Below are positions 15,178 to 30,366 of a stretch of 64,000 nt of DNA, piece by piece. The position numbers and the translations under genes are program-made. The notes under the pieces are model-generated. The model was not told the origin of the DNA. It did not search any database and was given only the letters and a program-made list of their open reading frames with translations. The number at the start of each line of letters is the position of its first letter. The stretch's first letter is position 1. Source of the DNA: Alcanivorax limicola (GTDB lineage Bacteria; Pseudomonadota; Gammaproteobacteria; Pseudomonadales; Alcanivoracaceae); contig NZ_JAIOUB010000002.1 in NCBI RefSeq assembly GCF_019931215.1, forward strand, positions 372,001-436,000, given 5' to 3'.

Positions 15178-15278
15178 GCAGCATTATGGATTTAGTGACA
15201 CAGTTGGCAGTATGAGGCGCCAAAATTTGTTGGCTTTTGCCAAACTGGGTGCCTGAACAACGAGCTTCAGGCTGCGAT

Positions 15279-15312
15279 GACCGTCGCCCTGCGCAAAGCG
15301 CAGGGCACGGTC
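15279..15312 (+). terminator. Strong hairpin after gyrB
   Basis: GACCGT-C-GCCCTGCGC pairs with GCGCAGGGC-ACGGTC around an AAA loop, giving about 15 base pairs. It lies about 100 bases past the gyrB stop. No T-run follows, so it may act with Rho or protect the 3' end. Confidence 0.6.
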
Positions 15313-15543
15313 GGCGCTGCCCCGGCATGATAAACCGCCGAATCAGAATTAAAAATAATCATATATATCAATGCGTTATAATAAGACGCACGGCGATGTA
15401 CCATCTTTTGCGCAGAGTGAAAGCCCTGCATTGGCAATCGGGTGGCGTGGAACTTGCAGAATGACCCCCCACGATCACCTTCCGGCTGGACACTGTTGCC
15501 TGGCAGCAGCCTTCCGATGACCAATCTGTGTTGAGGGAATTGA
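15313..15543 (+). other. Leader region of the response regulator gene
   Basis: No gene is seen here. An AT-rich stretch (about 15345-15385) contains TATAAT at 15377-15382, a candidate -10 without a clear -35. This would give a leader of about 150 bases before the regulator ATG at 15544. Confidence 0.4.
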
Positions 15544-16254
15544 ATGGATCGCCTACTGATGGTGGAAGACGATGACATGCTGCGTGCCGCAATCCGTGAG
15601 GTATTCAATCTCAAGGGATATGAGGTCACGGAGGCGGCTTGCGGCGCCACTTTTCTCGAGCAGGTGCCTAATCCGGCCCATGATCTTGTTCTGCTGGATC
15701 TCAATTTACCGGACGAGGATGGCCTGGTACTGCTACGCCGCCTGCGTGCGACCTCTGATGTGCCGGTGTTTGTTGTGTCGGGCAGAGCAGATCACGAAAG
15801 CAGGCTGACGGCGCTGGAGCTGGGTGCGGATGATTACGTTATCAAACCCTTCAATGTCCGCGAGCTCGAGCTGCGCGTGCGTAACTTCCTGGCCCGGCAA
15901 CGTAATCGTAACCGGACGTCAGAAGAAGTGCAGCGCATCAGCTTCGGCTCCTGGACACTGCTCCCGGACCAGTGGAGCCTGCATGATGAACACGGGCATC
16001 GGCTGACGCTGACCCGCGGGGAGCTGGATATTCTGCTGGCCCTGGTCAAAGCCAAGGGCGCTGCGCTGACCCGCGAGCAGTTGGCCGATGTGCTGTCCCG
16101 CAATATCAATGGCAGCAATCCCGAGACGGTCACCGTGCTGATTTACCGGATGCGTAAAAAGCTGACCAGCGACCTGGACGGTGAGCAAGTCATCGTCACA
16201 GTACCCGGCATCGGTTATCGCCTGGGTCCAGAGGTCGTTCAGTCACCTGCCTGA
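15544..16254 (+). CDS. OmpR/PhoB-family response regulator
   Basis: A 236-residue two-domain regulator. The receiver has the acidic pocket EDDD at the N-terminus, phospho-acceptor Asp52 in LLDLNLPDEDG, and the switch Lys in DDYVIKPFN. The C-terminal winged helix has LTLTRGELDILLALVKAKGAALTREQLADVLSR in outline and ends TVPGIGYRLG. No kinase is adjacent; the nearest is the hybrid kinase at 27243-29537. Three 11-bp direct repeats, the usual binding layout for this family, lie just downstream (16344-16371), so it probably controls the DUF11 operon. Confidence 0.92.
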   Translation: MDRLLMVEDDDMLRAAIREVFNLKGYEVTEAACGATFLEQVPNPAHDLVLLDLNLPDEDGLVLLRRLRATSDVPVFVVSGRADHESRLTALELGADDYVIKPFNVRELELRVRNFLARQRNRNRTSEEVQRISFGSWTLLPDQWSLHDEHGHRLTLTRGELDILLALVKAKGAALTREQLADVLSRNINGSNPETVTVLIYRMRKKLTSDLDGEQVIVTVPGIGYRLGPEVVQSPA

Positions 16255-16343
16255 ACGACCCGTTAATATCATTACGCCCATACGGCTGTACGCGACGTAT
16301 TTTCCCCTGCTTTCCTCGCTTCACCCTCCATTATCACGATCCT

Positions 16344-16371
16344 GTTCATAGGCTGTTCATCCGCGGTTCAG
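16344..16371 (+). promoter_or_regulatory. Tandem 11-bp direct repeats, candidate response-regulator array
   Basis: GTTCAT occurs at 16344-16349 and 16355-16360 and GTTCAG at 16366-16371, exactly 11 bp apart, each preceded by CT or CG. OmpR/PhoB proteins bind head-to-tail repeats with an 11-bp period. The array lies between the regulator gene and the first DUF11 gene. Confidence 0.6.
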
Positions 16372-16389
16372 TACATATCCATGCCTGCT

Positions 16390-16450
16390 CGTAAACAATC
16401 ATAGGTTGGGGGAACTCCCGCATGCGGGGGGTCCAGCGATGATGTTTACG
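16390..16450 (+). promoter_or_regulatory. Structured leader next to the first DUF11 gene
   Basis: Outer arms CGTAAACAATCAT (16390-16402) and ATGATGTTTACG (16439-16450) pair with one bulge. Inside is a perfect CCCGCATGCGGG palindrome. The right arm touches the GGGAG ribosome site of the gene at 16461, so the structure could control translation. It does not match a riboswitch class I know. Confidence 0.5.
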
Positions 16451-16460
16451 GGAGAAACCA

Positions 16461-16880
16461 ATGATCAATCGCAATCTGATCTTCGCGATGGCATTGCTGA
16501 GCAGTCTGTTGTCCGCAGGGCTTCATGCTGCACCGAACATGTCAGTACAAATGGTGGCAGAGAAAGAAATCATTGTGACAGACGAGCAAGGTGCCGAAAC
16601 CGTTCAGCGCGTTGTCGCTGAAGATGCACTGCCAGGCGATGAAATCTTCTACACACTGACCTACCGCAACGACGGCACATCCGATGCCCGCGATATCCGC
16701 CTCGATAATCCTGTGCCCGCCGGCACGCGCTACGTCCCGGACAGTGCATGGGGCGATGGCACAGAAATATCTCTCGACACCAACACTGAGACAGGTCAGC
16801 TGACGGCTGTTCGGTGGCAGGTGTCGGAAATCCCTGCGGGCCGCTCCGGTTCTGTGGGCTTTTCAGTGATGGTTGAGTAA
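16461..16880 (+). CDS. Secreted DUF11-like protein
   Basis: A 139-residue product with a signal peptide (about 1-23, ending HAA) and one DUF11-like module: GDEIFYTLTYRNDGTSDARDI in part, then NPVPAGTRYVPDSA. DUF11 domains are beta-sandwich repeats found in bacterial surface proteins. It is the first gene of the five-gene surface operon. GGGAGAAACCA precedes the ATG. Confidence 0.8.
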   Translation: MINRNLIFAMALLSSLLSAGLHAAPNMSVQMVAEKEIIVTDEQGAETVQRVVAEDALPGDEIFYTLTYRNDGTSDARDIRLDNPVPAGTRYVPDSAWGDGTEISLDTNTETGQLTAVRWQVSEIPAGRSGSVGFSVMVE

Positions 16881-16979
16881 TTCCGGCCCCGGCATCTGCT
16901 GGCTTACGGAACTGCCCGTTGATCACGCCAGGCGGGCTTTAGTTATAAAAAAAGGCGTACCAAGTACAGGGGAAGCAAG

Positions 16980-18218
16980 ATGAAAACATTGATCCATCGT
17001 CAGATTGCGACGGTGTTGCTGGCGGGGGTGGCGTTCATGGCGACACCAGCACTGGCCAGTACCGCAGCAAACACAGTGATTCAGAACAGTGTCACGGTCA
17101 GCTTCAGCGATGCGGCAAACAATGCGCAACCGGACGTCACCGCCAGTGTCAGTATCACCGTCAACCTGGTCGCCTCTGCGCCCCTGGTTAGCGTGGATCC
17201 GACCAGCATCAATCCGGCAACCGGTAACACCTCCTATGATATCGATTACACGGTAACGGCAACCGCCAATGGCCCGGACCTGTATCTGATCTCATCTGCG
17301 TCAGTCAATACCGATATGAACGGCGCGCCCGCCTTTAGCGGTGCGGCATCTGTTGCGCTGGGTGCTACCACGGTTGCCAATCCGGCTTCTGCAGGTGACA
17401 CCACCATCGAAGTACCCTTTGACGCGATTGCCGACGGTTCCGTCAATGGCCTGGCTGCCGGTGACACCATCATCCTTAACCCTGGCATGCCGAACGAAGA
17501 ATCCGTTGTTATTGCAGCGGGCGGCATTGATGAAAGCACCGGCGCAAGCACCAACGTCGTTACGCTGACACTGGAGACGGCCCTTAATGAGTCACACGCA
17601 ATCGGGTCGATCATCGGGCAGCAACGTACGGTAACCGTAACGGTACTGACAGCCTCCACGACGTTGCCGGCAACCAGCGGTACACACGTTGTCACCACAA
17701 CCTTTACCTCCCAGGAAGATGGTGCTGTAACGGTGGACGGTGACGAGACCACGATAACGGTAGTGCGTCCTGTGCTGACGGTTCTCAAGTATGTCCGCAA
17801 CGTCGACAACGCCGTGACGGGAACGGGCGCACGGACGGTCAACAGCGCGACCTATTACACCGCCGGTGTGGGTGGCAACCCGGGTGACCTGATGGAGTAT
17901 CTGATTGTGGTCGACAACACCGCCGCCGGTGCGGTCGAAGCCACGGACATTATCATCACGGATCCGATCCCGCAGTTCATCACCTATGAGTCGGGCTCCT
18001 TGCGTATCGACCCCGCGACGGCGGATGCCAATGGTTCGGGGACCTGGCAGGTCGTTGCAGACGGCAGCAGTGACAATGATGCGGGGACCTACGACAGCGC
18101 TAACGAAACCGTCATTTTCTATGCCGGTGCCGGTGGTGATGACGCAACCGCCGAAGGTGGTTCCCTGGATGCGGACGAATTCAGCTTTGTGAAATTCCAG
18201 GTCCGGATCGATAACTGA
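16980..18218 (+). CDS. Secreted DUF11-like surface protein
   Basis: A 412-residue product with a signal peptide (about 1-26, cleavage after ALA). The Thr/Val/Ala-rich body reads as successive beta-sandwich modules, and the C-terminal part has LTVLKYVRNVDN and PGDLMEYLIVVDNTAAGAVEATDI (given in part), typical of DUF11. It shares the N-terminal plan (signal, NTVIQNSVTVSF) with the next gene. AGGGGAAGC precedes the ATG. It is probably an exported structural protein; the precise role is unknown. Confidence 0.8.
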   Translation: MKTLIHRQIATVLLAGVAFMATPALASTAANTVIQNSVTVSFSDAANNAQPDVTASVSITVNLVASAPLVSVDPTSINPATGNTSYDIDYTVTATANGPDLYLISSASVNTDMNGAPAFSGAASVALGATTVANPASAGDTTIEVPFDAIADGSVNGLAAGDTIILNPGMPNEESVVIAAGGIDESTGASTNVVTLTLETALNESHAIGSIIGQQRTVTVTVLTASTTLPATSGTHVVTTTFTSQEDGAVTVDGDETTITVVRPVLTVLKYVRNVDNAVTGTGARTVNSATYYTAGVGGNPGDLMEYLIVVDNTAAGAVEATDIIITDPIPQFITYESGSLRIDPATADANGSGTWQVVADGSSDNDAGTYDSANETVIFYAGAGGDDATAEGGSLDADEFSFVKFQVRIDN

Positions 18219-18230
18219 CAATAAGAAAAA

Positions 18231-18262
18231 AGATCGGGGCATGGCACGCCATGCTCCGATCT
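18231..18262 (+). terminator. Intercistronic hairpin in the DUF11 operon
   Basis: AGATCGGGGCATGG pairs with CCATGCTCCGATCT around a 4-base loop (14 pairs including one G-T). An A-run precedes it and no T-run follows on the plus strand, so it may stabilise or process the message rather than end it, changing the dose of upstream against downstream genes. Confidence 0.55.
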
Positions 18263-18277
18263 GTCAGGGGGATACAA

Positions 18278-19405
18278 ATGTCTTACTTCAAACGCTGTCT
18301 GGCGGGGTTGGCCCTGTCAGTTGTTGCCGGGCCGGTGCTTGCATCGGTTGGCGGCGGCGCCACGATTCATAATGTCGCGACCATGAACTTTGACGGCGGC
18401 CAGATCTCGGCGCATGTCAATGTGCAGGTGCTGACCGTCGGGTCCACACCGACGATCGTTTCCACTTCTGAACAAGCCTTCTCCGGCGATACCGTTGTTG
18501 TGACCTACAGCGTCACCAACACCAGTAACGGCGCAGATACGTTTGATCTTCAGGTTTCCACCAATGACACAGGCGTTGCCGCGCCAGCCAATCTGGCTGT
18601 TGCACCGGCATCCCTGGTACTGGGTGCTTCTATCACCTCCCTGCCCTCCTCGGCCGGCACGGTATTCATTCCAGCCGGGTCGGAAACACATCTGGCACCG
18701 GGAGATCGCGTACGCCTGAACATCGGCGGTACGGATTACTTCTACACTTTGAGCAGTGTCACACCCGGCACGCCGGCGACGACGTCCGGCAACACGACGA
18801 CACCGGAAGTAGCGACGGCGCTACAACTGGCGCCGGTCGGCAGTGCGCCCGCCATCATCGCCGGGAACATTCCGGTAGGCACGCAGATCGGCGAAGTGGG
18901 CAGCTTCACGGTAACGCTGGATGCAGGGGCAATCACCGTGCCGGGTACCGGCGGCAGCCACGAGATTGAAGTTCAGGGCAGCACTACCGCACCAGGCCCG
19001 GGCGGCCCGGGTGACGTGGTGGTATTCACCGACACCTCGGGTAGTGTCGCCGTACTATCTGGCGAAGCCACGCTGACCAAGGAAGTCCGCAACGTCACAT
19101 TGGGCGGTGCCTTCGCCACCAGTGGAGTAACAGCTCGCCCGGGTGACGTGCTGGAGTACCGCATTACCGCGTCGACCATTCCCGGCGAAGATGTCACGGG
19201 TGCGGTGCTGACGGATCAGATCCCGCAATACAGTCGCTATGTCGAAGACAGCACTAACCTGAATGGCACTGCGTTTGGCGCACCGGACAGCGGCACCTTC
19301 CCGTTTGCGGGAACCGGTGCGGCGATCAACAGCCCCGGTGGCGCGACGGGTCAGATTCTGGATGGTGAAAGTGCGGTAGTACTCTTCCGTGTGACGGTCG
19401 AGTAA
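18278..19405 (+). CDS. Secreted DUF11-like surface protein
   Basis: A 375-residue product with a signal peptide (about 1-23, ending VLAS). Repeated beta-rich segments follow: TVVVTYSVTNTSNGADTFDL (part), GDRVRLNIGGTDYFY, then a C-terminal DUF11-like PGDVLEYRITAS and LTDQIPQYSRYVEDS. It is a likely diverged paralogue of the preceding gene, sharing LTKEVRN/LKYVRN and DxIPQ motifs. An ATG at 18251 is in frame but lies in the hairpin; AGGGGG before 18278 favours the chosen start. Confidence 0.8.
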   Translation: MSYFKRCLAGLALSVVAGPVLASVGGGATIHNVATMNFDGGQISAHVNVQVLTVGSTPTIVSTSEQAFSGDTVVVTYSVTNTSNGADTFDLQVSTNDTGVAAPANLAVAPASLVLGASITSLPSSAGTVFIPAGSETHLAPGDRVRLNIGGTDYFYTLSSVTPGTPATTSGNTTTPEVATALQLAPVGSAPAIIAGNIPVGTQIGEVGSFTVTLDAGAITVPGTGGSHEIEVQGSTTAPGPGGPGDVVVFTDTSGSVAVLSGEATLTKEVRNVTLGGAFATSGVTARPGDVLEYRITASTIPGEDVTGAVLTDQIPQYSRYVEDSTNLNGTAFGAPDSGTFPFAGTGAAINSPGGATGQILDGESAVVLFRVTVE

Positions 19406-19412
19406 CACCGAC

Positions 19413-22400
19413 ATGACAGCGCCAATGTACAGCCATGCGGCAGCAACAATTGCCCGCCAGCCGGTGAACCGGCCGGTGGGCAATGTTGCCGCGTGGTTGT
19501 GTGTCTGTGCGCTGCTTCTGTCAGTGATATTTCTGGTGCTGGCACTGCTGCCCGGCGTGGCGCGCAGTGCCTATCTCGTGACAGGTGATGCAGCACAGCT
19601 GCAATGGCAAGGCGCTGCAACAAGTGCGCGTGCCAATACGGTTGTCACGCGGTTTGAACAAATCGGCTTCTATCGCTATGCGCCGGAAGCCACGACGACC
19701 TACCGGATATGGCCCGGAAATGCGGCATCCCCGGACAGCCTCAGTGGTCTGCCACCGCAAGCGCTTGCTGCATTGCCCCCGGCACGCCGCCCGGGCGGCG
19801 AGGTGATTCCTGCGGGTGCGCTGGTGCCGCTGCTACCAGCGGAAAATGTTTCAGCGGGCGAAACCCTGTTCGTCGTGCTGGAGGTGCCCCCGCTGACGGC
19901 GCCATCGCGCGTGCCGGCACGCGGCACGCGGCAAGATGGCCGGCGTTTCATGGCTGTCACCGTCGATACCGAAGATGCTGCGGGCAATACCAATACGTTC
20001 ATTATCACCTTGATCCAGGAATCCCCGACCAGCGAGCGATATATCGGCTATCTGACACCGTCAGCGGATACCCCGCTGCCTGATCTGACGCGCCTGACGC
20101 TACGCTATGACGACTACGGCGATATGCCGGACTCACTGACTGCCCAGGCGCCAGCGCGCGTCAGCATGGCGGAGCTGGCGCAGCGCGAGGCGCGCAAGAC
20201 AGCCGTTATCGGCCAGGCTGCGGTGGTGCCGGAAAGTGGCTTGTTCCTGACCAAGGAGATCCTGCGCCCCAATGTGATGGTCGGCGACTTTGTTGCCTAC
20301 CGAGTGCGCGCAGAAAATGCCTCCGGTGCCCTGATGCCGGCAGTCACCATCGAGGATGATCTGCCGCCAGGCTTCCGCTATCAACGCGGATCACTCTACG
20401 TTGATGGCGTAAACGCCCCGGACCCGGCCATCGGCCCGGGCGGTCGCAACCTGCGTATCGAACTCGGCCCGCTACCGGATGGCGCTTCGCGTAGCGTGCG
20501 TTATGTCACCGAAGTGACGGTCGCGGCTCGCCCCGGCCTTGCGGTCAACAGCGCCGTTGCGCGCGCGGGTGCCCTGTCATCGAATCGGGCTGAAGCGACC
20601 GCCTCGGTGGCGCGCGCATTCTTTGACGACAGTGCTTTTCTCATGGGTCGCGTGATCGCCGGTGAGTGCAATGAGCGCGCTGGTCAGGGCGTGGCCGGTG
20701 TGCGCTTGTATCTGCAAGATGGCACCAACGTGGTGACAGACAGCCAGGGCCGCTGGCACCTGGAAGGCGTGCGCCCGGGCACCCATGTATTGCAGCTGGA
20801 CACCGAGACATTGAGCGAGCGCTATACCCTGCGTGCCTGCCCGGGAACGAGTCGCACTGCGGGCAATGACATATCGCGCTTTGTGAACGTGCAAGGCGGC
20901 ACCCTGTGGCGCGAAGATTTTTATCTGGATGCCAAACCGGAAGTCAAAGACCGCCTGCAGCAACGCCTTCGCACGGACGACGTTGCGGGTGAGAACAGCT
21001 ACATCATGACACTGGATCTCGCCACAGGAGATACCCGCTTTGACAGTGTCACCACGGAAGTCTATCTGTCTGCGGACCTGGCGCCGCTGCCAGGCCGTGC
21101 GCGCCTGGATGGCGAGCTGATTGCCGATCCCATGCAGCACGCCAACCATTTTGTGTTCCGGATTCCGGTACGTGGCAGCTACTGGCGACACCAGCTGACG
21201 CTGCCGATTACAGCCGTGCGAGAAGCGGTCACCGAGGCTGAGAAGACATTGACGGTGATCACTCGAGGCACCTTGCCCGGTGGCGAGCAGGTCGTGCTGC
21301 AGACTCGCAATCGGGTATCCGTTGCGCCGCCGCGTGCAGAAAGTCGCCAGTTTGTATTGCGGCCACAGTTTGGTGTGATGGACTGGCGCCTGCCGGTAAG
21401 CGATCAGGCGGAACTGGATGACACCATTGCCGCGCTGATGGAATACGAACAGTTAAAAATTACCGTCACCGGGCACAGTGATAACGTGCCCATTCGCCCG
21501 CGGGCAGGTCGCACGCTGACGGATAATCGCGCGCTGGGTTACGCGCGCGCGCAATCCGTGGCGGAGTATATTGCGGCACAGATGGGCATACCGCTGTCCG
21601 ACATTCATATACGCAGTGTCGGTGAAGATGAGCCGGTGGCCGATAATGCGACCGCCGAAGGCCGCGCGCTGAACCGCCGGGTAGAGATCCATGCCGACGT
21701 CAGTCGCCGGGTGTCCGGTCCGGAATACACGGTTGTCGAAGGCGACAGTGGTATGACCCGCAGCGACGCCGGAGATACCGCAAGCCATGAAGGCAAACAG
21801 CGCGGCATGATCAACCTCCGCGATGGCATGACACTGGCGCAGCCCGTGCTCAGCGTCAATGCGGTGATGGATGCGCGTCTCAAGCCACGCCTGCTGCTCA
21901 ATGGTGAGCCGGTGCCGGACAGCCGCATCGGCATGAAGATGGCAGACAAGGAAACCGGCACCCATCGCTACGTCTGGGTCGGCGTTCAGTTGTTCAACGA
22001 GGGCGACTACCGCTTCGAGCTGCAAGGCCTGGATACCTTTGGCAATGTTCGCTTCAGCGATACGGCGACGGTGACGTTGACCGGTCTGGTTCGGCATATT
22101 CGCTTCGCCGCACATTCGCCCAATAGCGCCGACGGCATCACGCCGGTCGGCGTAAAACTGGCATTGAGTGACGAGCGCAACCGGCCCATAGAAACGGGGA
22201 CCGAACTGCGCCTGGCACAATCCTCGGGGCTGGTACCGCTGCGCAAGCGACAGCAGGACAATCCGTTGACCCAGCGGCAGGATATTGTCGAGGTGGACGC
22301 CAATGGCTATGCGTGGTTCGAGCCGGTGGGCAATGCCGGCACCTACCGCATTCGTCTGGCGTCCGGTGAGTTCATATCGGATGAAATAGAAGTGCGGGTA

Positions 22401-24851
22401 GATCCGCATCTGCGCGACTGGATTCTGGTGGGTTTTGCAGAAGGCAGTGTGGGATACAACACGCTTTCCGGCAATCAGTCCGAATTGAACGCAGGAGAAG
22501 AGCACCTCTACACCGACGGTGATATGGCCTTCTTTGCGCGAGGGCGCGTCAGTGGGGAATGGTTGTTGACGGCGTCCTACGACAGCCGCCGCCGTCGTGG
22601 CGATACGCCTCTGGGGCAGTCCATTGATCCGGAAGCCTGGTATGTCCTGTACGGGGATGAGGCGTTTCGTCGCCATGATGCGCCAACCAGCGATCGGCTT
22701 TATGTGCGCATGGAGCGCCGGGATTTTTACGCCCTTTACGGCGATTTTGATACGGGGATGACGGTGACAGAGTTGTCTCGCTACAGCCGTACAGTCACCG
22801 GCGCCAAGACCGAGTACCAGGGCCGACATGTGAGCGCGCTGGGCTTCGCCAGCGAAAATCGGCAAGGCTTTATCCGCGATGAGATGGCGGGCGATGGCAC
22901 CTCGGGCCTGTACCGTTTGTCACGCAGCAATATCATTCCCGGTTCCGAGCGCATTACCATTGAAGTCCGTGACCGCTTTACCGCAGAGCTGCTCAACGAA
23001 CAGGGCCAGACGCGTTTTATCGATTACAGCATCGACTACCAGAGCGGCACGGTATTCTTCCGGCAGCCGGTGCCGGTGCAGGATGGCGCTTTCAATCCGG
23101 TGCGGATCGTTGTCGAGTATGAAACCGACCAGTCCGAACAGAGCCTGATCACCGGTGGGCGTGTGGCGGTGCATGACAGCGAGCGTCGCATCGAGCTGGG
23201 CATCAGCGGTGTGCATGACGACACCACCGGCGCACGTGGCAGCCTTGCCGGCGCCGACCTGACCTGGAAGCCCAATGACCATCACACATTGCGGGCAGAG
23301 CGGGCCATGACACGTCAGGACCAGCCGGGTGGTCGCGATGACGGCGATGCCTGGCTGATGGAGCATCTGTACACGTCTGAACGGGTGGATACCCGCCTGC
23401 ACAGTCGCGAACAAACCGAGGGTTTCGGGCTTGGCCAGCAATCCGCAACACAGGATGCCCGACGTATCAGTGGCGGTGACGTGCGTTACCGGATTACCGA
23501 ACAGCTTTCCCTGGCGACGGAACTGAGCCGGCAGGAAGTGCTGGGTACCGACAATCGCCGGGATTTGCTGGAAACGCGTGCTGAATATGACAGCCAGCTC
23601 TGGGGCATGTTCGGCGGTGTCCGGCGCGCGGAAGACCACCGCGACAATGACACCCTGCGTTCGGATCAACTGCTGGCTGGCGCCTATCGTGATCTGATGG
23701 AACAACGTCTGCGCCTGAGCATTCGTGGCGAAACCAATATCAATGACGCCGGCGACAATACGGATTATCCGTCCCGTCTGGGTCTGGGTGCCGACTACCG
23801 GCTGACCAGCCGCGTCAGTCTGTTCAGTGCCCAGGAGTTCAGTTGGAATGAGGAGCGCCGCACCAGCGATACTCGTGCCGGACTGCGTGCTTCTCCCTGG
23901 CAAGGCGGTACTATTTCGTCGGAACTGCGGCAGACCCATGACGAATTTGGCCCCCGCCTGTTTGCCCACTCCGGGCTCTATCAGGTACTGGACCTGGGGG
24001 CGGGCTGGAGCACGGATTTCGGCTTTGATCGCGCGCAGACGGTGCGCGACAGTGGCGCCACAGAAACACGTTTCGATGACGAGCGCCCCACGGCGAGCGG
24101 CACCGCCCGCGCCGGCGACTACACCGCCGTCTTCACTGGCCTGGGCTATCGCACGGAAGCCTGGCAAGTGACCAGCCGCCTGGAGCATCGTGATTCAGAT
24201 ATCGATGAAAGATGGAATTTTATCAGTGGTTTCCACCATCGTCTGGATGATGCGGACACGCTGGCCGGTCGGCTGCTGCACTTCTACACGCGCACCGCGA
24301 CCGGCGAGCGTCGCACCGAATCTGCTATCGAAGGCAGCTACGTGCGGCGCCCCATGGATGCCGACTGGTTTGTACTGAACCGGACCCGATTGACGCTGGA
24401 CGAGCAGCTGGACGCCTTTGGTGAACAACGCGGCACACGCATCACCAATAATACGGTGGCCAACTTCCGTCCGCTGAGGCGGCACCAGCTTTCGCTGCAG
24501 TATGGCGCCCGTTACGTGGTCGATACCATTGATGAGGCACGTTACCGTGGCTACACCGACCTGGTGGGCTACGAATACCGCTACGACATCACCGAGCGCT
24601 GGGACCTGGGTACACGGGGCAGCCACAGCCACAGCTGGAACAGCGGCATTCGTCGTGAGAGTGTGGGGGTGATGGCAGGCTACAGCCCGGTGCGGGATGT
24701 CTGGTTGAGCCTGGGCTACAACTTCCGGGGCTTCTACGATGACGATTTTGATGGCGCTGCGGGTCGCATGCAGGGGGTGGTACTGGATTTCCGTATCAAG
24801 TTCGATCAGACCCGTGCGCAGGGCATGCGTCGTGAGGTCCCTGATGTTTGA
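19413..24851 (+). CDS. Giant envelope protein: DUF11, OmpA-like and beta-barrel
   Basis: An 1812-residue product. A hydrophobic export segment lies at about 28-55 after a long N-tail. A beta-rich domain (55-270) is followed by a DUF11 module (about 272-405; VGDFVAYRVRAENASG), a Cna/SdrD-like module (about 410-475; GQGVAGVRLYLQDG...DSQGRWHLEGV), an OmpA-like peptidoglycan-binding domain (about 645-770; TGHSDNVPI and EGRALNRRVEI), a Big-like domain (about 897-1007), and about 800 residues of alternating strands that look like an outer-membrane barrel. The start is 7 bases after the previous stop. It may anchor or export the small DUF11 proteins; this role is inferred. Confidence 0.82.
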   Translation: MTAPMYSHAAATIARQPVNRPVGNVAAWLCVCALLLSVIFLVLALLPGVARSAYLVTGDAAQLQWQGAATSARANTVVTRFEQIGFYRYAPEATTTYRIWPGNAASPDSLSGLPPQALAALPPARRPGGEVIPAGALVPLLPAENVSAGETLFVVLEVPPLTAPSRVPARGTRQDGRRFMAVTVDTEDAAGNTNTFIITLIQESPTSERYIGYLTPSADTPLPDLTRLTLRYDDYGDMPDSLTAQAPARVSMAELAQREARKTAVIGQAAVVPESGLFLTKEILRPNVMVGDFVAYRVRAENASGALMPAVTIEDDLPPGFRYQRGSLYVDGVNAPDPAIGPGGRNLRIELGPLPDGASRSVRYVTEVTVAARPGLAVNSAVARAGALSSNRAEATASVARAFFDDSAFLMGRVIAGECNERAGQGVAGVRLYLQDGTNVVTDSQGRWHLEGVRPGTHVLQLDTETLSERYTLRACPGTSRTAGNDISRFVNVQGGTLWREDFYLDAKPEVKDRLQQRLRTDDVAGENSYIMTLDLATGDTRFDSVTTEVYLSADLAPLPGRARLDGELIADPMQHANHFVFRIPVRGSYWRHQLTLPITAVREAVTEAEKTLTVITRGTLPGGEQVVLQTRNRVSVAPPRAESRQFVLRPQFGVMDWRLPVSDQAELDDTIAALMEYEQLKITVTGHSDNVPIRPRAGRTLTDNRALGYARAQSVAEYIAAQMGIPLSDIHIRSVGEDEPVADNATAEGRALNRRVEIHADVSRRVSGPEYTVVEGDSGMTRSDAGDTASHEGKQRGMINLRDGMTLAQPVLSVNAVMDARLKPRLLLNGEPVPDSRIGMKMADKETGTHRYVWVGVQLFNEGDYRFELQGLDTFGNVRFSDTATVTLTGLVRHIRFAAHSPNSADGITPVGVKLALSDERNRPIETGTELRLAQSSGLVPLRKRQQDNPLTQRQDIVEVDANGYAWFEPVGNAGTYRIRLASGEFISDEIEVRVDPHLRDWILVGFAEGSVGYNTLSGNQSELNAGEEHLYTDGDMAFFARGRVSGEWLLTASYDSRRRRGDTPLGQSIDPEAWYVLYGDEAFRRHDAPTSDRLYVRMERRDFYALYGDFDTGMTVTELSRYSRTVTGAKTEYQGRHVSALGFASENRQGFIRDEMAGDGTSGLYRLSRSNIIPGSERITIEVRDRFTAELLNEQGQTRFIDYSIDYQSGTVFFRQPVPVQDGAFNPVRIVVEYETDQSEQSLITGGRVAVHDSERRIELGISGVHDDTTGARGSLAGADLTWKPNDHHTLRAERAMTRQDQPGGRDDGDAWLMEHLYTSERVDTRLHSREQTEGFGLGQQSATQDARRISGGDVRYRITEQLSLATELSRQEVLGTDNRRDLLETRAEYDSQLWGMFGGVRRAEDHRDNDTLRSDQLLAGAYRDLMEQRLRLSIRGETNINDAGDNTDYPSRLGLGADYRLTSRVSLFSAQEFSWNEERRTSDTRAGLRASPWQGGTISSELRQTHDEFGPRLFAHSGLYQVLDLGAGWSTDFGFDRAQTVRDSGATETRFDDERPTASGTARAGDYTAVFTGLGYRTEAWQVTSRLEHRDSDIDERWNFISGFHHRLDDADTLAGRLLHFYTRTATGERRTESAIEGSYVRRPMDADWFVLNRTRLTLDEQLDAFGEQRGTRITNNTVANFRPLRRHQLSLQYGARYVVDTIDEARYRGYTDLVGYEYRYDITERWDLGTRGSHSHSWNSGIRRESVGVMAGYSPVRDVWLSLGYNFRGFYDDDFDGAAGRMQGVVLDFRIKFDQTRAQGMRREVPDV

Positions 24852-26340
24852 GCACATGCTATCCCGTATCGCATTGCTGGTGTGTGCGCTGCTGATCCCC
24901 ATACAGGTGTCAGCCAGTCCCCTGATTTCGCGCACTATCAATATTGATGGCAACATGTCGGATTGGTACGCGCCGACCAACATCACCACGCACCCGGGAC
25001 AGTTCAGCGAAGATTGTCAGGGAGACAGCGCTCCATCCTGTGACCTTGATTATCCGGTCGGAAGCACCGGGCGCGATTTGCGCAAGTTTTCGTATACCTG
25101 GGACGAGCAGTATCTCTACTTCTATGTGGAGCGCTGGGCCAGTGCGACGAATACCGTCAACTGGCTTTTTTACCTGGACGAAAACAGTAATGGCCGCATG
25201 GAGGCGGGCGAACGTATCTTGCGAGTCGACTGGAGCGGCTCCAACCGCCGCACGAACGCCTACCTGTGCCCCTACTACCCCGACGACCCGGCGGGCGACC
25301 CTCTGGTGAGCCCTGTATCCGGGGCGGGCGATGGTTACACCCTGCCCGGCACCTCCTCCAATGGCGATTGCACACAGCTTTACAGCAATGTCGTGGGTGG
25401 CGCTCAAACGGGTACAGAAATGGAGGCGCGTCTGGCATGGGCCCAGCTAGGCATGTCCGGGCCGCGCAATCTTCGTTTTCACATTTCCTCCTCCCGAGGC
25501 ATGAACTTGCCCTCTCAGATCGAAGACAACATGGACGGCCCGGGTGGGGAGAGTGGTGGAGGCCTGTTTCCACCGGACATGGCGCTTTCCATCGAGCAGA
25601 TGCCGCCGACTGTCACCGCGGGCAACACCTTTACGGTAGACGTGCAATTGCGGCATATCCACTTTGATGATTTCAGTGATATCGCGGTACAGATAGCACC
25701 GAGTCCGCTGCTTGAATATGTGGCGCATACCGCCCCCCCGGGTACTACGTTGACAGATAGCAACGGTGATGGCGTTCCGGATCGCTGGTTGATCCCCTTA
25801 TTGCAGGAGGGAGATGAAAGAGTCCTGCAACTGGTGCTACGGGCAAACAGCGTCACCGCAGAGCAACTGGCAACACTGTTCGTTGAGTTCGCCGACTTTA
25901 CCGGACGCGACAGCAATGCTGATAACAACCAGGACTTGGGCCAGGTGCTGGTTATTCCCGGGCCACAGATTGCGGTGTCCAAACAGGCTTCAGTGCCCAA
26001 TGCCGACCCGGGGGAACTGGTACGCTACACGGTTCACGTCGAGAATATTGGCACCGTAGAGGTAACAGATCTTTATCTGAATACCGCGATATCCAGATAC
26101 GCTCTGTTGAAAGAGGATGGCTACGGCGCTGGCGCACCGATTCACTTTGTCGATGGAGAGCCTGTCTCGGGCCTGGCGCCTGGCGCAATAAGCTATTCAG
26201 ACAACAATGGCCTGACCTATGACTATGTGCTGCAGCAGGAGGAAGATCCGGCGGTGACCCATTTCCTGCTCGAGATGCCAGGTGTGTTGTTGCCGGGGCG
26301 GGGCTTCACGTTTTCCTACTACGTGAGAATCAGGCACTGA
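24844..26340 (+). CDS. Secreted protein with C-terminal DUF11-like domain
   Basis: A 498-residue product whose ATG overlaps the giant gene stop by 8 bases, so translation is coupled. It has a signal peptide (about 1-24, cleavage after SAS), an N-terminal domain beginning TINIDGNMSDWY with DEQYLYFYVERW (a DOMON/CBM9-like pattern), Cys residues in the middle, and a C-terminal DUF11-like part (DPGELVRYTVHVENIG). It contains acidic DSNGDGVPDRW and DENSNGRMEAGE loops that look like calcium sites. It ends the surface operon. Confidence 0.8.
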   Translation: MFEHMLSRIALLVCALLIPIQVSASPLISRTINIDGNMSDWYAPTNITTHPGQFSEDCQGDSAPSCDLDYPVGSTGRDLRKFSYTWDEQYLYFYVERWASATNTVNWLFYLDENSNGRMEAGERILRVDWSGSNRRTNAYLCPYYPDDPAGDPLVSPVSGAGDGYTLPGTSSNGDCTQLYSNVVGGAQTGTEMEARLAWAQLGMSGPRNLRFHISSSRGMNLPSQIEDNMDGPGGESGGGLFPPDMALSIEQMPPTVTAGNTFTVDVQLRHIHFDDFSDIAVQIAPSPLLEYVAHTAPPGTTLTDSNGDGVPDRWLIPLLQEGDERVLQLVLRANSVTAEQLATLFVEFADFTGRDSNADNNQDLGQVLVIPGPQIAVSKQASVPNADPGELVRYTVHVENIGTVEVTDLYLNTAISRYALLKEDGYGAGAPIHFVDGEPVSGLAPGAISYSDNNGLTYDYVLQQEEDPAVTHFLLEMPGVLLPGRGFTFSYYVRIRH

Positions 26341-26354
26341 GTATGATATGCCAT

Positions 26355-26381
26355 CCCGGCGGCGCCACCGCATGCGCCGGG
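26355..26381 (+). terminator. Hairpin after the DUF11 operon
   Basis: CCCGGCG (26355-26361) pairs with CGCCGGG (26375-26381), 15 bases after the stop. No T-run follows, so termination here is only possible. Confidence 0.4.
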
Positions 26382-26577
26382 CAGAGTCTGAATGCTGGCA
26401 CAGGCTGCCACTGTGCGTAAGTGCTTACATCCAGCGGAAGCTTCGAATGTGGGGGTCAGTCACGTCCGGTTTACCGTTTCTGTACATCTAATCCGGTCGG
26501 AGACCGGGCGTGGGCCGTTACATCATGCCCTGCCCGGTTATACTGAAGTGGGATCGGAGAGGAGACCCGCGACAGCA

Positions 26578-27231
26578 ATGAAGATACTGCTTATCGATGA
26601 TCACGCCTTGTTCCGCGATGGTGTGGCGCTACTGCTTGCTGAATTACCGGTACAGCCCACGGTTCTGGAAGCGGGAGAGTGTGCGTCAGGCTGTGAACTG
26701 CTCAACGCCCATCCCGACATCGGCCTGATACTGCTTGATCTGGAGCTGCCCGGCATTGATGGTGTGGCGGGCTTGCAGCGGATACGGCATGAGCACCCCG
26801 ATATACCGGTCATTGTGGTTTCCGCTCACGAATCGGTCAGCAACGTTACCGCCGTGATGGATGCCGGGGCCATGGGATTCATCCCGAAGTCGTCCACGAC
26901 ACAGGTCATGCTGGCAGCCCTGAACCTGGTGCTCGCCGGGGGCGTTTACCTGCCGCCCCTGGTGCTTGCTACGGTTGCGGATACGGCGCCGGTGGCAGCG
27001 ACAGCGCAGAGCATTGGCCTGTCAGCGCGACAGGCGATGGTGCTGGAGCACCTGTTGCGCGGCAACAGCAACAAGGAAATCTGCCGAGAGCTTGATCTGT
27101 CGCCGTCGACGGTCAAGAACCATGTGTCTGCGGTGTTCCGGGCGCTTAACGTGTCGTCCCGCACGCAGGCCCTGGTGGCGGCAGCTCGGCTGGGCATCCG
27201 CTTCCCCGGGGACGACCCGGCAATGGAGTGA
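26578..27231 (+). CDS. NarL/LuxR-family response regulator
   Basis: A 217-residue regulator with receiver motifs IDDHALFRDG, phospho-acceptor Asp54 in LLDLELPGIDG and Lys in GFIPKSS, and a C-terminal LuxR helix-turn-helix (LSARQAMVLEHLLRGNSNKEI and STVKNHVSAVFRALNV). ATG at 26578 is chosen because the receiver begins there; an upstream ATG at 26392 lies in apparent leader. TATACT at 26539-26544 may be its -10. It is convergent with the hybrid kinase (12 bases apart), which is its likely partner. Confidence 0.92.
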   Translation: MKILLIDDHALFRDGVALLLAELPVQPTVLEAGECASGCELLNAHPDIGLILLDLELPGIDGVAGLQRIRHEHPDIPVIVVSAHESVSNVTAVMDAGAMGFIPKSSTTQVMLAALNLVLAGGVYLPPLVLATVADTAPVAATAQSIGLSARQAMVLEHLLRGNSNKEICRELDLSPSTVKNHVSAVFRALNVSSRTQALVAAARLGIRFPGDDPAME

Positions 27232-27242
27232 GCGGGCACGGC

Positions 27243-29537
27243 TCAGCGCAAAAGCGCCTCCAGTGCGGCGCGCAATTCTGTGGCGCCGAAAGGCTTGAAC
27301 AACACCGGCACGTTTGCTCGCCGGATATCTTCCACATCTTCCGGCGCGGTATCGCCGGTGACCAGAAGGCAAGGTAAGGCATTGTCGTAGCGGGCCTTGG
27401 CCGCACGGATGACGGCAAGGCCATTGTCCTTCTCGAGACGAAAGTCGCTGATCAACAGGTCGGGCACGACACGCGCTTCCTCGAGCGCCGCCTGCAACGC
27501 CTGAAGTCCGGGCGCCGCCACCACCTCGGCACCAAAATGGTGTAGCACCTGCGCCATGCTCTCGCGCACGGCAGCCTCATCTTCCACGAGAGCTACCCGC
27601 ATGCCGGAAAGGCTGAAGACTTTGTCAGGCAACCAGGAATCCGTCTCGCGCGTGTTCTGGTGGGACAACCCCGGCAATATGATGCTGAAGCAGGAGCCTT
27701 TGCCAGGACGAGATGACAGCGTCACGCGGTGACCCAGCAGATCGACGGAGCGCTGCACAATCGACAAGCCCAGTCCCAGCCCTTTGCTGCGGTCACGCTG
27801 GACATTATCAATCTGGTAGAACTCCTGAAAAATTTCTTCCTGCTTGTCTGCAGGAATACCAATGCCGGTATCACAGACGGCGACGCGCAAAAACCCCTGG
27901 CCGGCCCGGCGCACGCCTACGACAACGCCACCCTTGCGGGTGTACTTGAGGGCATTGGCGACCAGGTTTCTCAGCACACGTTCAAAGATGACCGGGTCAG
28001 TACTGACAATGGCCGGAGAATGTCGAATGCGGAGCTCAAGCCCACGGCTTTCTGCCTCCGGCTCGAGGTGGACGCGCAACGACTGAAAGACACTCTCGAT
28101 ACGCACCGCGTGAAACTCCGGCTCCACGGCGCCGGCATCGAGGCGGGAAATATCCAGCAGTCCTTTGAGGAGGTCCTCCATTGCGGCCACCGCGCGGCGA
28201 ATCCGGCCCACGAGATCGAGCAATGCCGGTTCGGATGCCTTGTCGCGTAATAACCCGACCAGAAGGCTTACGGTGTGAATCGGCTGACGCAGGTCATGGC
28301 TTGCTGAGGCGAGAAAGCGTGTCTTGGCCATATTGGCGGCTTCAAGTTTGCGGGTGCGGTCCTGAACCCGCTTCTCAAGCGACAGGTTCAATTCTTCAAC
28401 CTGGTTGGTGGCACGCACCAGATGACCAATCAGATGGGCGCCATAGGACAGGAATACCATCGGTAGCGCATACGCTAACCAGTAGACATCCTTGATGGGC
28501 ATCATGCCTCGGGACAGCAGATAGTCATGTACTGCCGCAATGACGGTAAACGCCAATGACAAACCCAATGCCCATAACGTATAGCTGCTACGCCGCCTGG
28601 CTTCATCGAGCATCAGCCATATAGCGGGAACACTGGCGGCGATGATGATCGGGTATCCAGCAAGCCGGACATAATCCATATAGCCCGTTAACAGCGATAC
28701 GGCGGCGACGGTCGGCAGAAACAGCGCCACACCGACGGTAACGGCAAGATAGGTGGCGCGATGGCGTCCGGAGAACAACATGGAAAACAAGGCCAGCAGC
28801 AGGGGCGTAACGGCATTGACCGAGAAAAAGAACCAGTCGAAGAAAGGCCGTGCTATCAACGCGTACTCACTGAAATAAAGTTCCGTGCGCATCGAGCTGA
28901 GCACGCAAAGCAGGCCGAAGACGCCTATCGCTTTTTCGGAGCGACGGGCCAGCCATATCTGCAGCATCAGCAGCCCGAACACCATTGCCGCTACGTTCAG
29001 CGCCGCGCGAATGCCGGATGTAAGAAACACGTACCGGCCATAACCCGGCCTGACGTCTGCAGCAGGTCCGAAGACCAGGCCCGCCATGCCGGGCTTTGTG
29101 CCAGGTTCGAACACCTGCTCGATCAGCAACGCATTGCGACCGGCCAGCACAAGTGCCGGGGGCACCTCCACAAAGCGGGAAACAAAGTGCCGCACATGAA
29201 AATATCGGGCATGGCTACCCTGGTCATAGATCAGCGCATCATTGAGATAGATGGCCGAGATTCGGCCAATGCGATCCATCCGCAATGCATAGACCAATGC
29301 GCCGGGGTCCTGAATATCGAATTCGAAGCGGTACCAGGCATATTGCGCGCCGTCGGGCGGGAAGGTTCTGCCTATGTCACGCAGGGTAACGCTCTGCCAG
29401 ACGTTCGTGGCGTGTGGCGCATACGGCTGGTCGGCCCAGGTCATCTCGCCGTTGGCCAGTGCTACTGTGTTTGCCATGCTGAGGGGTGAGACACACAGCC
29501 ACAGCAGCGCAGCAATACCGAGACCCCAACGACCCAT
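27243..29537 (-). CDS. Hybrid sensor histidine kinase with 7TM sensor
   Basis: A 764-residue kinase. It has a signal peptide, a periplasmic 7TMR-DISM-like beta domain (WQSVTLRDIGRTF...YAWYRFEFDI), seven or so membrane helices (about 175-370), a coiled coil (QVEELNLSLEKRVQDRTRKLEA), HisKA with SASHDLRQPIHT (His near 412), HATPase with NLVANALKYT, DTGIGIP and GLGLGLSIV, and a C-terminal receiver with ISDFRLEKDNG. ATG at 29537 follows AAGGGA. The terminal receiver suggests a phosphorelay, possibly to the neighbouring NarL-type regulator or the PhoB-type one at 15544. Confidence 0.92.
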   Translation of the reverse strand: MGRWGLGIAALLWLCVSPLSMANTVALANGEMTWADQPYAPHATNVWQSVTLRDIGRTFPPDGAQYAWYRFEFDIQDPGALVYALRMDRIGRISAIYLNDALIYDQGSHARYFHVRHFVSRFVEVPPALVLAGRNALLIEQVFEPGTKPGMAGLVFGPAADVRPGYGRYVFLTSGIRAALNVAAMVFGLLMLQIWLARRSEKAIGVFGLLCVLSSMRTELYFSEYALIARPFFDWFFFSVNAVTPLLLALFSMLFSGRHRATYLAVTVGVALFLPTVAAVSLLTGYMDYVRLAGYPIIIAASVPAIWLMLDEARRRSSYTLWALGLSLAFTVIAAVHDYLLSRGMMPIKDVYWLAYALPMVFLSYGAHLIGHLVRATNQVEELNLSLEKRVQDRTRKLEAANMAKTRFLASASHDLRQPIHTVSLLVGLLRDKASEPALLDLVGRIRRAVAAMEDLLKGLLDISRLDAGAVEPEFHAVRIESVFQSLRVHLEPEAESRGLELRIRHSPAIVSTDPVIFERVLRNLVANALKYTRKGGVVVGVRRAGQGFLRVAVCDTGIGIPADKQEEIFQEFYQIDNVQRDRSKGLGLGLSIVQRSVDLLGHRVTLSSRPGKGSCFSIILPGLSHQNTRETDSWLPDKVFSLSGMRVALVEDEAAVRESMAQVLHHFGAEVVAAPGLQALQAALEEARVVPDLLISDFRLEKDNGLAVIRAAKARYDNALPCLLVTGDTAPEDVEDIRRANVPVLFKPFGATELRAALEALLR

Positions 29538-29745
29538 AGCATTTCCCTTCCCTGACACGCACTGACCCAGACTGTACGCAAACATGATGCCCGGGTCGCC
29601 TCGCGCAATGCGCCCGGCTATTTGGCCCGGCCATAGGTCCCATGGTTTACCGATACGGGCACAGTTAGGCTACAGAGGGTTATAACACATTAGCCGGCAG
29701 CGTCCGGCGTTTGCTTGCTTTGCAATGATTAAAGGAATCCCGGGG

Positions 29746-30366
29746 ATGAAGAAGAACACCACTGTCGGGCTGCTCGCCGCATGCAGCCTGTTTGCTGTGA
29801 ATCTGTTTGCCATCAATGAAAGCCACGCGACAGAGGAAGCAAGTTACCACCCTGGCTGGCTGGATGAGCTGATGATTATCGGTGTCTACACCAATGACGA
29901 TAACCGTTTTGATGGCCTGTTCATGCGTTTCTGGGGCTCGAACAGGCACAGCAGCAACAGCAATCCCGGGGAAGGTAGTTATATCTATGGTGAACTCGAG
30001 CTCGGCGGCTTCGATACCAGTGGCCTGTTGACCAGCGGTGCGCTTATGGGGCTTGGCTATCAGATGGGCATTCCCGACCAGGACCTGGCATTCGGCTTTA
30101 TCGGCGCCGACATCAACTACCGTGCCTTCAATGTTGATGGCGGCGACAGCGATTCGGATATCGCTCTGGGCCTGGAAGTGGGGCTGCGGGCCGCGCTTAA
30201 TCCGGACCTGCTCGGGGAGGCCATCTTCCGCATCGACACGAATGATTTCATTGATCAGCCCAGCTTGCGTATCGGTGGCGCCTACAAGCGCTTCTATCTT
30301 TCGATGACACGTTTTCTGGACGATGGCGCCAACCGTATCCAGCTTGGCTATACCTTTGAAATGTGA
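29746..30366 (+). CDS. Putative outer-membrane or periplasmic beta protein
   Basis: A 206-residue product with a signal peptide (about 1-30, ending SHA). The rest alternates polar and aromatic strands and ends in LGYTFEM, with a terminal aromatic pattern as in barrel proteins. It vaguely resembles YfaZ-type outer-membrane proteins, but I cannot confirm this. TATAAC at about 29681 may be a -10. It is divergent from the hybrid kinase gene, so the two may share control. Confidence 0.65.
   Translation: MKKNTTVGLLAACSLFAVNLFAINESHATEEASYHPGWLDELMIIGVYTNDDNRFDGLFMRFWGSNRHSSNSNPGEGSYIYGELELGGFDTSGLLTSGALMGLGYQMGIPDQDLAFGFIGADINYRAFNVDGGDSDSDIALGLEVGLRAALNPDLLGEAIFRIDTNDFIDQPSLRIGGAYKRFYLSMTRFLDDGANRIQLGYTFEM

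Follow-up and report, generated by a model that had tools for sequence, protein, structure and literature searches.

Positions 15544 to 26340 of a 64,000-nucleotide stretch of the Alcanivorax limicola genome (contig NZ_JAIOUB010000002.1, positions 372,001 to 436,000; hereafter the window) carry the gene for a response regulator, RR1, and an operon for five proteins that we call D1, D2, D3, BIG, and D5. We consider it fairly probable that the operon encodes a donor-strand heteropolymer of split DUF11 (CLIPPER) domains, forming a short, ordered surface stalk or pilus-like structure that is possibly isopeptide-linked. The key feature, unnoticed in the first-pass annotation (a model's reading of the letters and open reading frames alone), is that gene ends cut the DUF11 domains between strands F and G. 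The grounds are truncated C-termini, donor-like N-termini, a conserved gene block, and Lys, Asp, and Asn residues split between proteins, all read from sequence, together with the barrel-type strands of a structure model; from these we infer pairing in trans, the order of the chain, the covalent bond, export through BIG, and adhesion. The components listed in the first-pass annotation, namely a PhoB-type regulator, repeats, three DUF11-like proteins, an 1812-residue DUF11/OmpA/barrel protein, and a fifth protein, are all present (open reading frames [ORFs], Pfam, TIGR01451, and AlphaFold2 [AF2]), and the ORF listing places the six ORFs at the coordinates reported there.

DUF11 domains appear divided between gene products

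DUF11 is an immunoglobulin (Ig)-like domain of seven to nine strands, according to the accessible part of PMC12617251. The C-terminal domains of D1, D2, D3, and D5 stop after strand F, as do those of other large proteins that accompany the operon in relatives (cargo). In D1, the PF01345 match covers profile positions 10 to 82 of 114 with only three residues of the protein left after it, and the complete DUF11 domain of D5 reaches profile position 110. D1, BIG, and D5 match PF01345 with 35.4, 26.2, and 38.2 bits (cut-off 24.6), and D2 and D3, which have no Pfam hit, are DUF11-type only through TIGR01451 (32.6 and 28.3 bits, cut-off 24). The N-termini were judged by eye, so that the signal-like segments, and with them the secretion of the products, are putative only. 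After this segment, D2 starts with STAANTVIQNSVTVSF and D3 with SVGGGATIHNVATMNF. The donor strand G pattern of D2, D3, and many BIGs is GTxIxNxATVxY, which follows strand F in complete tandem DUF11 domains; in 58 of 98 subunits, its Asn comes 9 to 10 residues past the final AxA-like site.

A donor profile was built from 102 subunit N-termini and scanned against ORFs of at least 560 residues. It gave 36 matches, 31 of them BIG N-termini (E up to 0.8), and outside BIG N-termini only three sites have E < 0.01: two lie mid-cargo, directly behind strand F of an internal complete DUF11 domain (locus L090, residues 455 to 469; L105, residues 472 to 486), and the third is the N-terminus of a 616-residue ORF resembling a BIG start (L135). 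Sites that are plain by eye are overlooked by the profile in L093 (2470-3492) and L090 (3442-4740). A profile of the truncated C-terminal domain produced 242 hits in 330 long ORFs, of which 113 reach the model end, the other 129 being left out of the counts; 99 of the 113 are internal, and 14 end the protein with 0 to 1 residue left. The segments behind the 99 internal copies outscore 3563 random windows from the same proteins (p 3e-9), the strict donor motif following 51 of the 99 copies compared with 273 of the 3563 random windows.

The large subunit proteins carry the donor in 103 of 109 cases, mostly by construction, and end after strand F in 101 of 109. For the small D1-like proteins, the corresponding figures are 1 of 47 and 43 of 47, and for background ORFs 4 of 404 (three of which look like true subunits) and 49 of 404. 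Of the six large proteins that lack a donor, three (L034, L038, and L146) resemble D1 but have long upstream starts. When the first 200 residues of full-length BIGs are judged leniently (domain E up to 1), a donor is seen in 40 of 61. These counts by class point to distinct roles, in which D1 and cargo would accept only, D2 and D3 would donate and accept, and many BIGs would donate only. When the donor profile was trained on 16 Alcanivoracaceae subunit N-termini alone, scores above 5 bits were still reached by 73 of 91 large subunits from other taxa, 15 of 52 BIGs, and 1 of 44 small D1-like proteins. Background ORFs reached this level in 3 of 404 cases and reversed sequences in 1 of 91.

The AF2 model of D3 consists of a hairpin (residues 38 to 59), a first domain (65 to 271), and a second domain (272 to 384), whose last strand (374 to 383) reaches the stop. 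It matches common Ig-type folds, with the second domain showing a middling similarity to the Streptococcus sanguinis pilus protein 9uvm (Z 7.3). D3 alone, including its N-terminal hairpin, is predicted at high confidence (predicted local distance difference test [pLDDT] 90.3), which would suit complementation in cis, with D2 and D3 being circularly permuted, self-complemented monomers that form no chain and act as independent surface or periplasmic proteins. We regard this alternative as improbable: the small D1-like proteins and the examined cargo have the truncated domain without a donor, and many BIGs have a donor but end in a barrel. Furthermore, strand G runs straight into the next domain in tandem proteins, so that insertion in trans would recreate a natural geometry, and trans pairing is favored because it would yield a chain of tandem DUF11 domains.

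Separately, an insert in the first domain of D3 (residues 122 to 217, window 18614-18901) matches phage tail-tube and capsid beta domains (Z 8.2 to 9.6), possibly reflecting merely a common arrangement.

A putative Lys-Asp-Asn triad is split between donor and acceptor

The DUF11 structure 9IFR has an isopeptide triad of Lys715, Asp748, and Asn806 (PMC12617251, accessible part). The D3 counterparts would be Lys277 and Asp322 on the acceptor and Asn41 on the donor, an assignment by motif position because direct sequence matching of the DUF11 parts to solved structures gave nothing useful. Among subunit acceptors, the Lys is present in 73 of 85 and the Asp of a DxxP motif in 106 of 109. The donor Asn occurs in at least 90% of 35 aligned D2/D3-type proteins and is invariant at D3 Asn41 in 10 of 10 family sequences; a strict Asn donor motif is found in 83 of 109 large proteins, 1 of 47 small proteins, and 58 of 404 background ORFs. 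With Lys and Asp in the D2/D3 acceptor and Asn in the donor, an autocatalytic Lys-Asn isopeptide bond between subunits is possible and would join D2/D3-type subunits. Covalent junctions are thus predicted from the residue pattern between D2/D3-type subunits and, in other lineages, also to BIG, and not everywhere. Glu302 of D3 was considered as the isopeptide catalyst and rejected; it is invariant in ten family D3 sequences, yet Thr frequently takes its place among wider relatives, and the catalyst described in the literature is an Asp.

BIG combines a putative anchor with a predicted barrel

The first-pass annotation had proposed that the large C-terminal domain of BIG forms a barrel. The AF2 model of BIG residues 780 to 1812 (pLDDT 74, predicted template modeling score 0.53) agrees with this, containing an Ig-like part and, from model residue 326 on, 34 barrel-type strands of at least 8 residues. 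Its best structural matches are FimD ushers (VIA-align; Z 15.5, 14.8, and 13.7; root mean square deviation [rmsd] 8 to 10), followed by VDAC (Z 13.6), TonB-dependent receptors, and SprA (Z 9.1). The C-terminal part is therefore best described as a large predicted barrel, whose usher identity is not proven by the model. Neither a FimD/PapC usher family nor an autotransporter (type Va) barrel profile occurs among the five Pfam matches of BIG (E up to 0.1) or the best 25 of its 30 NCBIfam matches. The OmpA domain (Pfam ID PF00691), predicted to bind peptidoglycan, is also found in 3 of 4 distant BIGs examined. The CarboxypepD_reg match at residues 421 to 462 (31.0 bits) is below the cut-off of 32.3.

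SprA, the translocon of type 9 secretion, is a giant outer-membrane barrel that exports proteins. BIG differs in carrying OmpA and DUF11 domains, and any homology to SprA looks weak, the structural match being accompanied by a weak Foldseek match and SprA being absent from the PDB sequence matches listed for BIG. The presence of SprA among the structural matches would nevertheless fit a view in which the giant barrel reads the truncated C-terminal DUF11 domain as a signal for sorting, similar to type 9 or two-partner secretion, and proteins are exported one by one without forming a polymer. Such a signal would also suit a C-terminal domain that is common to cargo with unrelated N-terminal parts (lectin-like, P-domain, and GEVED), but it leaves unexplained the strand G starts of D2, D3, and many BIGs as well as the conserved Asn, and we judge it to be unlikely.

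The gene block is conserved within the family and beyond

BIG orthologues (about 45 to 100% identity) were found in 11 of 46 family genomes, the copy in genome G044 being split over two contigs. Twelve other family genomes have a second-type BIG (24 to 26% identity over about 650 to 1000 residues), and the remaining ones have third-type or OmpA-domain matches only. In all 10 family loci that are long enough (our own and nine others), D1-D2-D3-BIG form one same-strand block, so that the co-occurrence check suggested for the five genes comes out positive for four of them, which are not scattered, and fails for D5, whose orthologue is present in only 4 of the 10 loci (downstream in our own, G036, and G033; upstream in G038). 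Other large proteins lie downstream in G037, G042, G043, and G011, G036 and G033 have a second one, and no large protein is adjacent in the D5 position in G039 and G040. These large downstream proteins differ in their N-terminal parts and share a C-terminal domain of the same kind. D5 is not part of the core of the system; it would be variable cargo.

A profile of BIG residues 780 to 1812 detected matches (E <= 1e-10) in 52 of 369 genomes of the class and, in its wider version, in 44 of 299 genomes of the phylum, some of them partial or second-type. Scanning named genomes yielded 144 relatives, of which the best 80 were kept, corresponding to 79 loci; they include Thalassotalea, Woeseiaceae, Gallionella, Sideroxydans, Mariprofundus, Ghiorsea, Desulfuromonas, and others, as well as one metagenome-assembled genome (MAG) labeled Nitrospirota and one labeled Eisenbacteria. 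Similar gene blocks occur in Woeseiaceae, Gallionella, Zetaproteobacteria, and Thalassotalea. Among the rows listed, BIG is usually preceded by one protein of ~160 residues and two of ~330 to 430 residues in varying order, and no ~160-residue protein was seen in the Desulfuromonas locus L091. Across 77 BIG loci, 58 have an adjacent same-strand upstream ORF, 46 have three or more of 120 to 560 residues, and 19 have no adjacent upstream ORF. Left out of the locus counts were duplicates (L089 and L096, of L038 and L035), contigs of family loci already included or the G044 fragment (L081 to L087), L051 to L080, and loci without a BIG above 200 bits (L040 and L140 among them). At the phylum level, a D1-like profile match is present in 28 of 32 genomes with a full-length BIG (>500 bits) compared with 8 of 267 without, 3 of these 8 lying inside multi-DUF11 ORFs; the D1 profile also weakly matches some D2/D3-type frames.

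The layout is repeated by a second BIG family (~25% identity; BIG2 of 2086 to 2099 residues), for which 4 of 7 second-type loci were covered (L041, L042, L045, and L046). Here, the acceptor is a protein of 157 to 178 residues (none listed for L042), a ~1000-residue protein has donor and acceptor (only the acceptor end in L042), and a ~960-residue protein has an acceptor and begins in a donor-like way (detected by the profile only in L041 and L045). BIG2 starts like ATSPGTVLRNQAQVRY, with a profile match in L042 only (E 0.3) and the others recognized by eye, and L041 encodes an additional 1366-residue acceptor-only protein.

In L048 to L050, a single-chain tandem DUF11 protein of 2700 to 3270 residues or more (reaching the locus end) precedes a 1702- to 1740-residue BIG-like protein without a donor hit, an arrangement suggestive of a fused form of this system. 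These neighboring single-chain proteins, and the DUF11 stalk adhesins with OmpA anchors known from the accessible part of PMC12617251, would also fit ordinary, independent DUF11 fibrillar adhesins in which the truncation is functionless family variation. We hold this to be very unlikely, as like gene blocks recur in MAGs labeled as several phyla (e.g., L097, L142, and L156) and the two BIG families both come with donor ends as well as acceptor ends.

Proposed assembly and points against it

In the proposed donor-strand polymer, the C-terminal DUF11 domain of each subunit would lack strand G, which the N-terminus of another subunit would supply, and this insertion would rebuild the tandem DUF11 geometry head to tail. 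The chain would start at BIG (donor only, base), continue with D2 and D3 (donor and acceptor), and end distally with D1 or a cargo such as D5 (acceptor only). BIG, with its OmpA domain and giant barrel, would anchor the fiber and probably export it. Because the OmpA domain is expected to be periplasmic, the chain is probably held by its base on that side of the membrane and would leave through the barrel; alternatively, the N-terminal part of BIG may itself be exposed. A more far-reaching version, which we put forward tentatively and think doubtful as a whole, is a chaperone-free pilus of split CLIPPER domains found in several phyla, with donor-strand complementation junctions sealed by Lys-Asn bonds, a counterpart of SpyTag/SpyCatcher, growing from the N-terminus of BIG (usher-like barrel, peptidoglycan anchor, and first donor in one) and bearing swappable acceptor-only tip adhesins.

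Several observations weigh against the polymer. No PapD-like or other chaperone was found by Pfam among the nine window proteins of 15544-30363. The FimD match has a high rmsd (9.9 for Z 15.5), covers about half of a moderate-confidence model, and is approached by VDAC (Z 13.6), and the OmpA domain was not found in one of the four distant BIGs checked (L128). The donor profile was trained on subunits later counted with it (103 of 109), the strict donor motif follows only about half of the internal domains, and many loci are related, so that the locus counts overstate the number of separate cases. The figure of 98 of 102 donor N-termini with Asn is not independent either, because these N-termini were chosen by a pattern permitting solely Asn or Ser at the key position, and the D3 counterparts in L088 and L090 carry Ser instead of the donor Asn. 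D1, D5, and 36 of 50 D1-like proteins carry Asn at the position of the Asp, and covalent junctions there are therefore unlikely. The donor-like N-terminus of BIG in the window is degenerate, without the Asn and without a clear donor motif, so that the base junction would be non-covalent or of a different kind here.

A permutation test, in which acceptor domains joined to D2 or D3 donor strands or to shuffled strands were scanned with Pfam, gave small gains. D1 scored 36.1 bits alone, rising to 43.8 with the D2 strand and to 40.4 with the D3 strand, and the respective shuffles gave 39.4 and 37.9; the D3 domain scored 17.0 alone, 23.2 and 20.6 with the strands, and 17.4 and 19.8 with shuffles; and the D2 domain scored 20.8 alone, 22.1 with the D3 strand, and 19.8 and 20.6 with shuffles, with no DUF11 match reported for the D2 domain with its own strand. 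The gain over shuffles is a few bits, which is weak evidence and belongs with the points above, and the donor-profile tests take the place of this one.

Relation to known systems

Chaperone-usher pili (type 1, P, and archaic Csu) similarly have Ig-like subunits without the C-terminal strand, an N-terminal donor strand, an acceptor-only tip protein with a variable N-terminal domain, and an outer-membrane barrel; these features are in part described in PMC9715654. The donor and acceptor layout described here matches that of chaperone-usher pilins (strand G missing, N-terminal donor), an analogy at the sequence level that implies no homology. No usher, pilin, or chaperone family is found in Pfam matches at E up to 0.1 among the nine proteins of 15544-30363. 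In contrast to chaperone-usher systems, BIG carries OmpA and, in many lineages, its own donor strand, and the subunits are DUF11/CLIPPER domains with a possible isopeptide.

TasA is a Gram-positive matrix protein that is not known to involve a barrel or DUF11 domains. Its fibers are likewise chains held by donor-strand exchange, according to the accessible part of PMC9674648. CLIPPER fibrillar adhesins such as B9T28_05395 of Acinetobacter silvestris (PDB ID 9IFR) share the domain family, an OmpA-like anchor, and probably the triad, but in the part of PMC12617251 available their domain is complete and the bond is intramolecular within one chain, whereas here the domain is split between operon proteins. 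The archaeal thread Saci_0406 likewise combines donor-strand complementation with a proposed intersubunit isopeptide bond; compared by its description in the available part of PMC9715654, it differs in linking Asn57 to the N-terminal Asp24 two subunits along and in being an archaeal filament without an outer-membrane barrel.

The first-pass annotation recognized no described system of this composition, and we likewise found no description of the operon among the records listed by searches of the open-access literature (PMC), nor in the accessible part of PMC11952670. Parts of the system have precedents in chaperone-usher pili, CLIPPER adhesins, and archaeal threads, and the combination, with a putative CLIPPER triad split between proteins on a barrel-anchored base, appears to be new. 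If true, the proposed assembly would add a further case of donor-strand polymers that arose independently, outside the chaperone-usher family, and it may be the first in Gram-negative bacteria whose subunits become joined covalently and spontaneously. The DUF11/OmpA operon of Alcanivoracaceae and of iron-oxidizing and sediment lineages thereby gains a testable function, and the strand and acceptor pairs are candidate protein ligation tools.

Regulator and upstream region

RR1 combines a receiver domain with Trans_reg_C. Of its 106 NCBIfam matches, 25 are listed, and every one of these stays below its cut-off (TorR is best with 178 of 275 bits, and PhoB has 119 of 296). An RR1-type regulator is adjacent to D1 in 6 of 10 family loci, with 74 to 90% identity in G037, G036, and G033 and about 50% in G042 and G043, and was not found in G039, G011, G040, and G038 (tblastn, E 1e-4). 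The regulator is not part of the core of the system. The first-pass annotation had proposed an outer-membrane platform that is anchored to the cell wall, serves beta-sandwich subunits, and has a regulator of its own; this general idea fits the anatomy described here, with the regulator adjacent in those six loci.

The array of binding-site-like repeats noted upstream of D1 was confirmed as three 11-bp direct repeats; an exact-repeat test detects them in the window, and shuffling the mononucleotides of the 216-bp region gave such a result in 1 of 2000 trials. Under this strict test, G042 and G043 are also positive, G040 is positive through an unrelated sequence, and G037, G036, and G033 are negative. 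A GTTCA-type tandem (6 of 7 bases alike) lies upstream of D1 in all 6 genomes with an adjacent regulator and in 0 of the 4 without. Tandem direct repeats are a known arrangement for OmpR/PhoB-type regulators, and RR1 probably controls the operon via the three 11-bp repeats. In four regulator-less relatives (L034, L036, L037, and L038), TGTGA-N6-TCACA is seen by eye upstream of D1 (CGTGA in G038/L038), possibly a CRP/Vfr-like site.

The structured leader proposed earlier is only partly borne out. A hairpin is predicted just upstream of D1, and the evidence is weak because 5 of 200 shuffles are as good and its arms, judged by eye, are also present in G037 and not in G036 or G033. A scan of 15200-17050 for sigma-70 promoters and terminators gave no more than in shuffles, and an Rfam scan gave no match at gathering thresholds.

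Downstream of the operon lie two convergent and possibly linked two-component genes, for a LuxR-type response regulator (plus strand, 26392-27231) and an NahK/ErcS-like hybrid kinase (minus strand, 27243-29585). The latter may be the partner of RR1, because a 79% identical kinase adjoins RR1 in G037. The gene immediately before the regulator in G042 and G043 encodes a different sensor-kinase-like protein (L032:15378-17567 and L033:15395-17572).

Coordinates of the operon and its neighbors

Table 1. Features of the locus, with positions counted from the first letter of the window
Feature	Position	Strand	Evidence
RR1, OmpR/PhoB-type response regulator, 236 aa	15544-16254	+	PF00072 and PF00486
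Three 11-bp direct repeats, CTGTTCATAGG CTGTTCATCCG CGGTTCAGTAC, putative RR1 operator	16342-16374	.	Repeat tests
Leader hairpin just upstream of D1 (predicted)	about 16385-16454	+	Minimum free energy -32.1, z -2.28
D1, putative acceptor-only DUF11 protein, 139 aa, without donor strand, stops after strand F	16461-16880	+	PF01345
D2, putative donor and acceptor subunit, 412 aa	16980-18218	+	TIGR01451; family alignment
D2 N-terminal donor strand (putative), residues 27-45, Asn36	17058-17114	+	Asn36 invariant in 8/8 aligned
D2 C-terminal DUF11-type domain without strand G, Lys270, Asp328	17763-18215	+	TIGR01451, alignment
D3, putative donor and acceptor subunit, 384 aa	18251-19405	+	Family alignment; AF2 pLDDT 90.3
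D3 N-terminal donor hairpin (putative), residues 32-59, strands 38-47 and 50-59, Asn41	18344-18427	+	Alignments, AF2
D3 C-terminal DUF11-type domain without strand G, residues 272-384, Lys277, Asp322	19064-19402	+	Alignments, AF2
BIG, 1812 aa: degenerate donor-like N-terminus, DUF11, CarboxypepD-like, OmpA, and Ig-like domains, predicted giant barrel	19413-24851	+	Profiles, AF2
Complete DUF11 domain within BIG, about residues 279-400	20247-20612	+	PF01345 279-386, profile 4-99 of 114
OmpA domain of BIG, predicted peptidoglycan-binding, residues 659-755	21387-21677	+	PF00691 47.8 bits, cut-off 27.2
Predicted giant beta-barrel of BIG, residues about 1105-1795	22725-24797	+	AF2; VIA-align
D5, putative acceptor-only cargo: one complete DUF11 domain, then a truncated C-terminal one	24844-26340	+	PF01345, sequence

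The D5 ORF spans 24739-26340 with a likelier start at 24844 or 24856, and overlaps the end of BIG. Elsewhere in the same genome, a further DUF11-type match (G000:C3:244452-244751) lies in a 2819-residue open frame ~127 kb before the start of the window.

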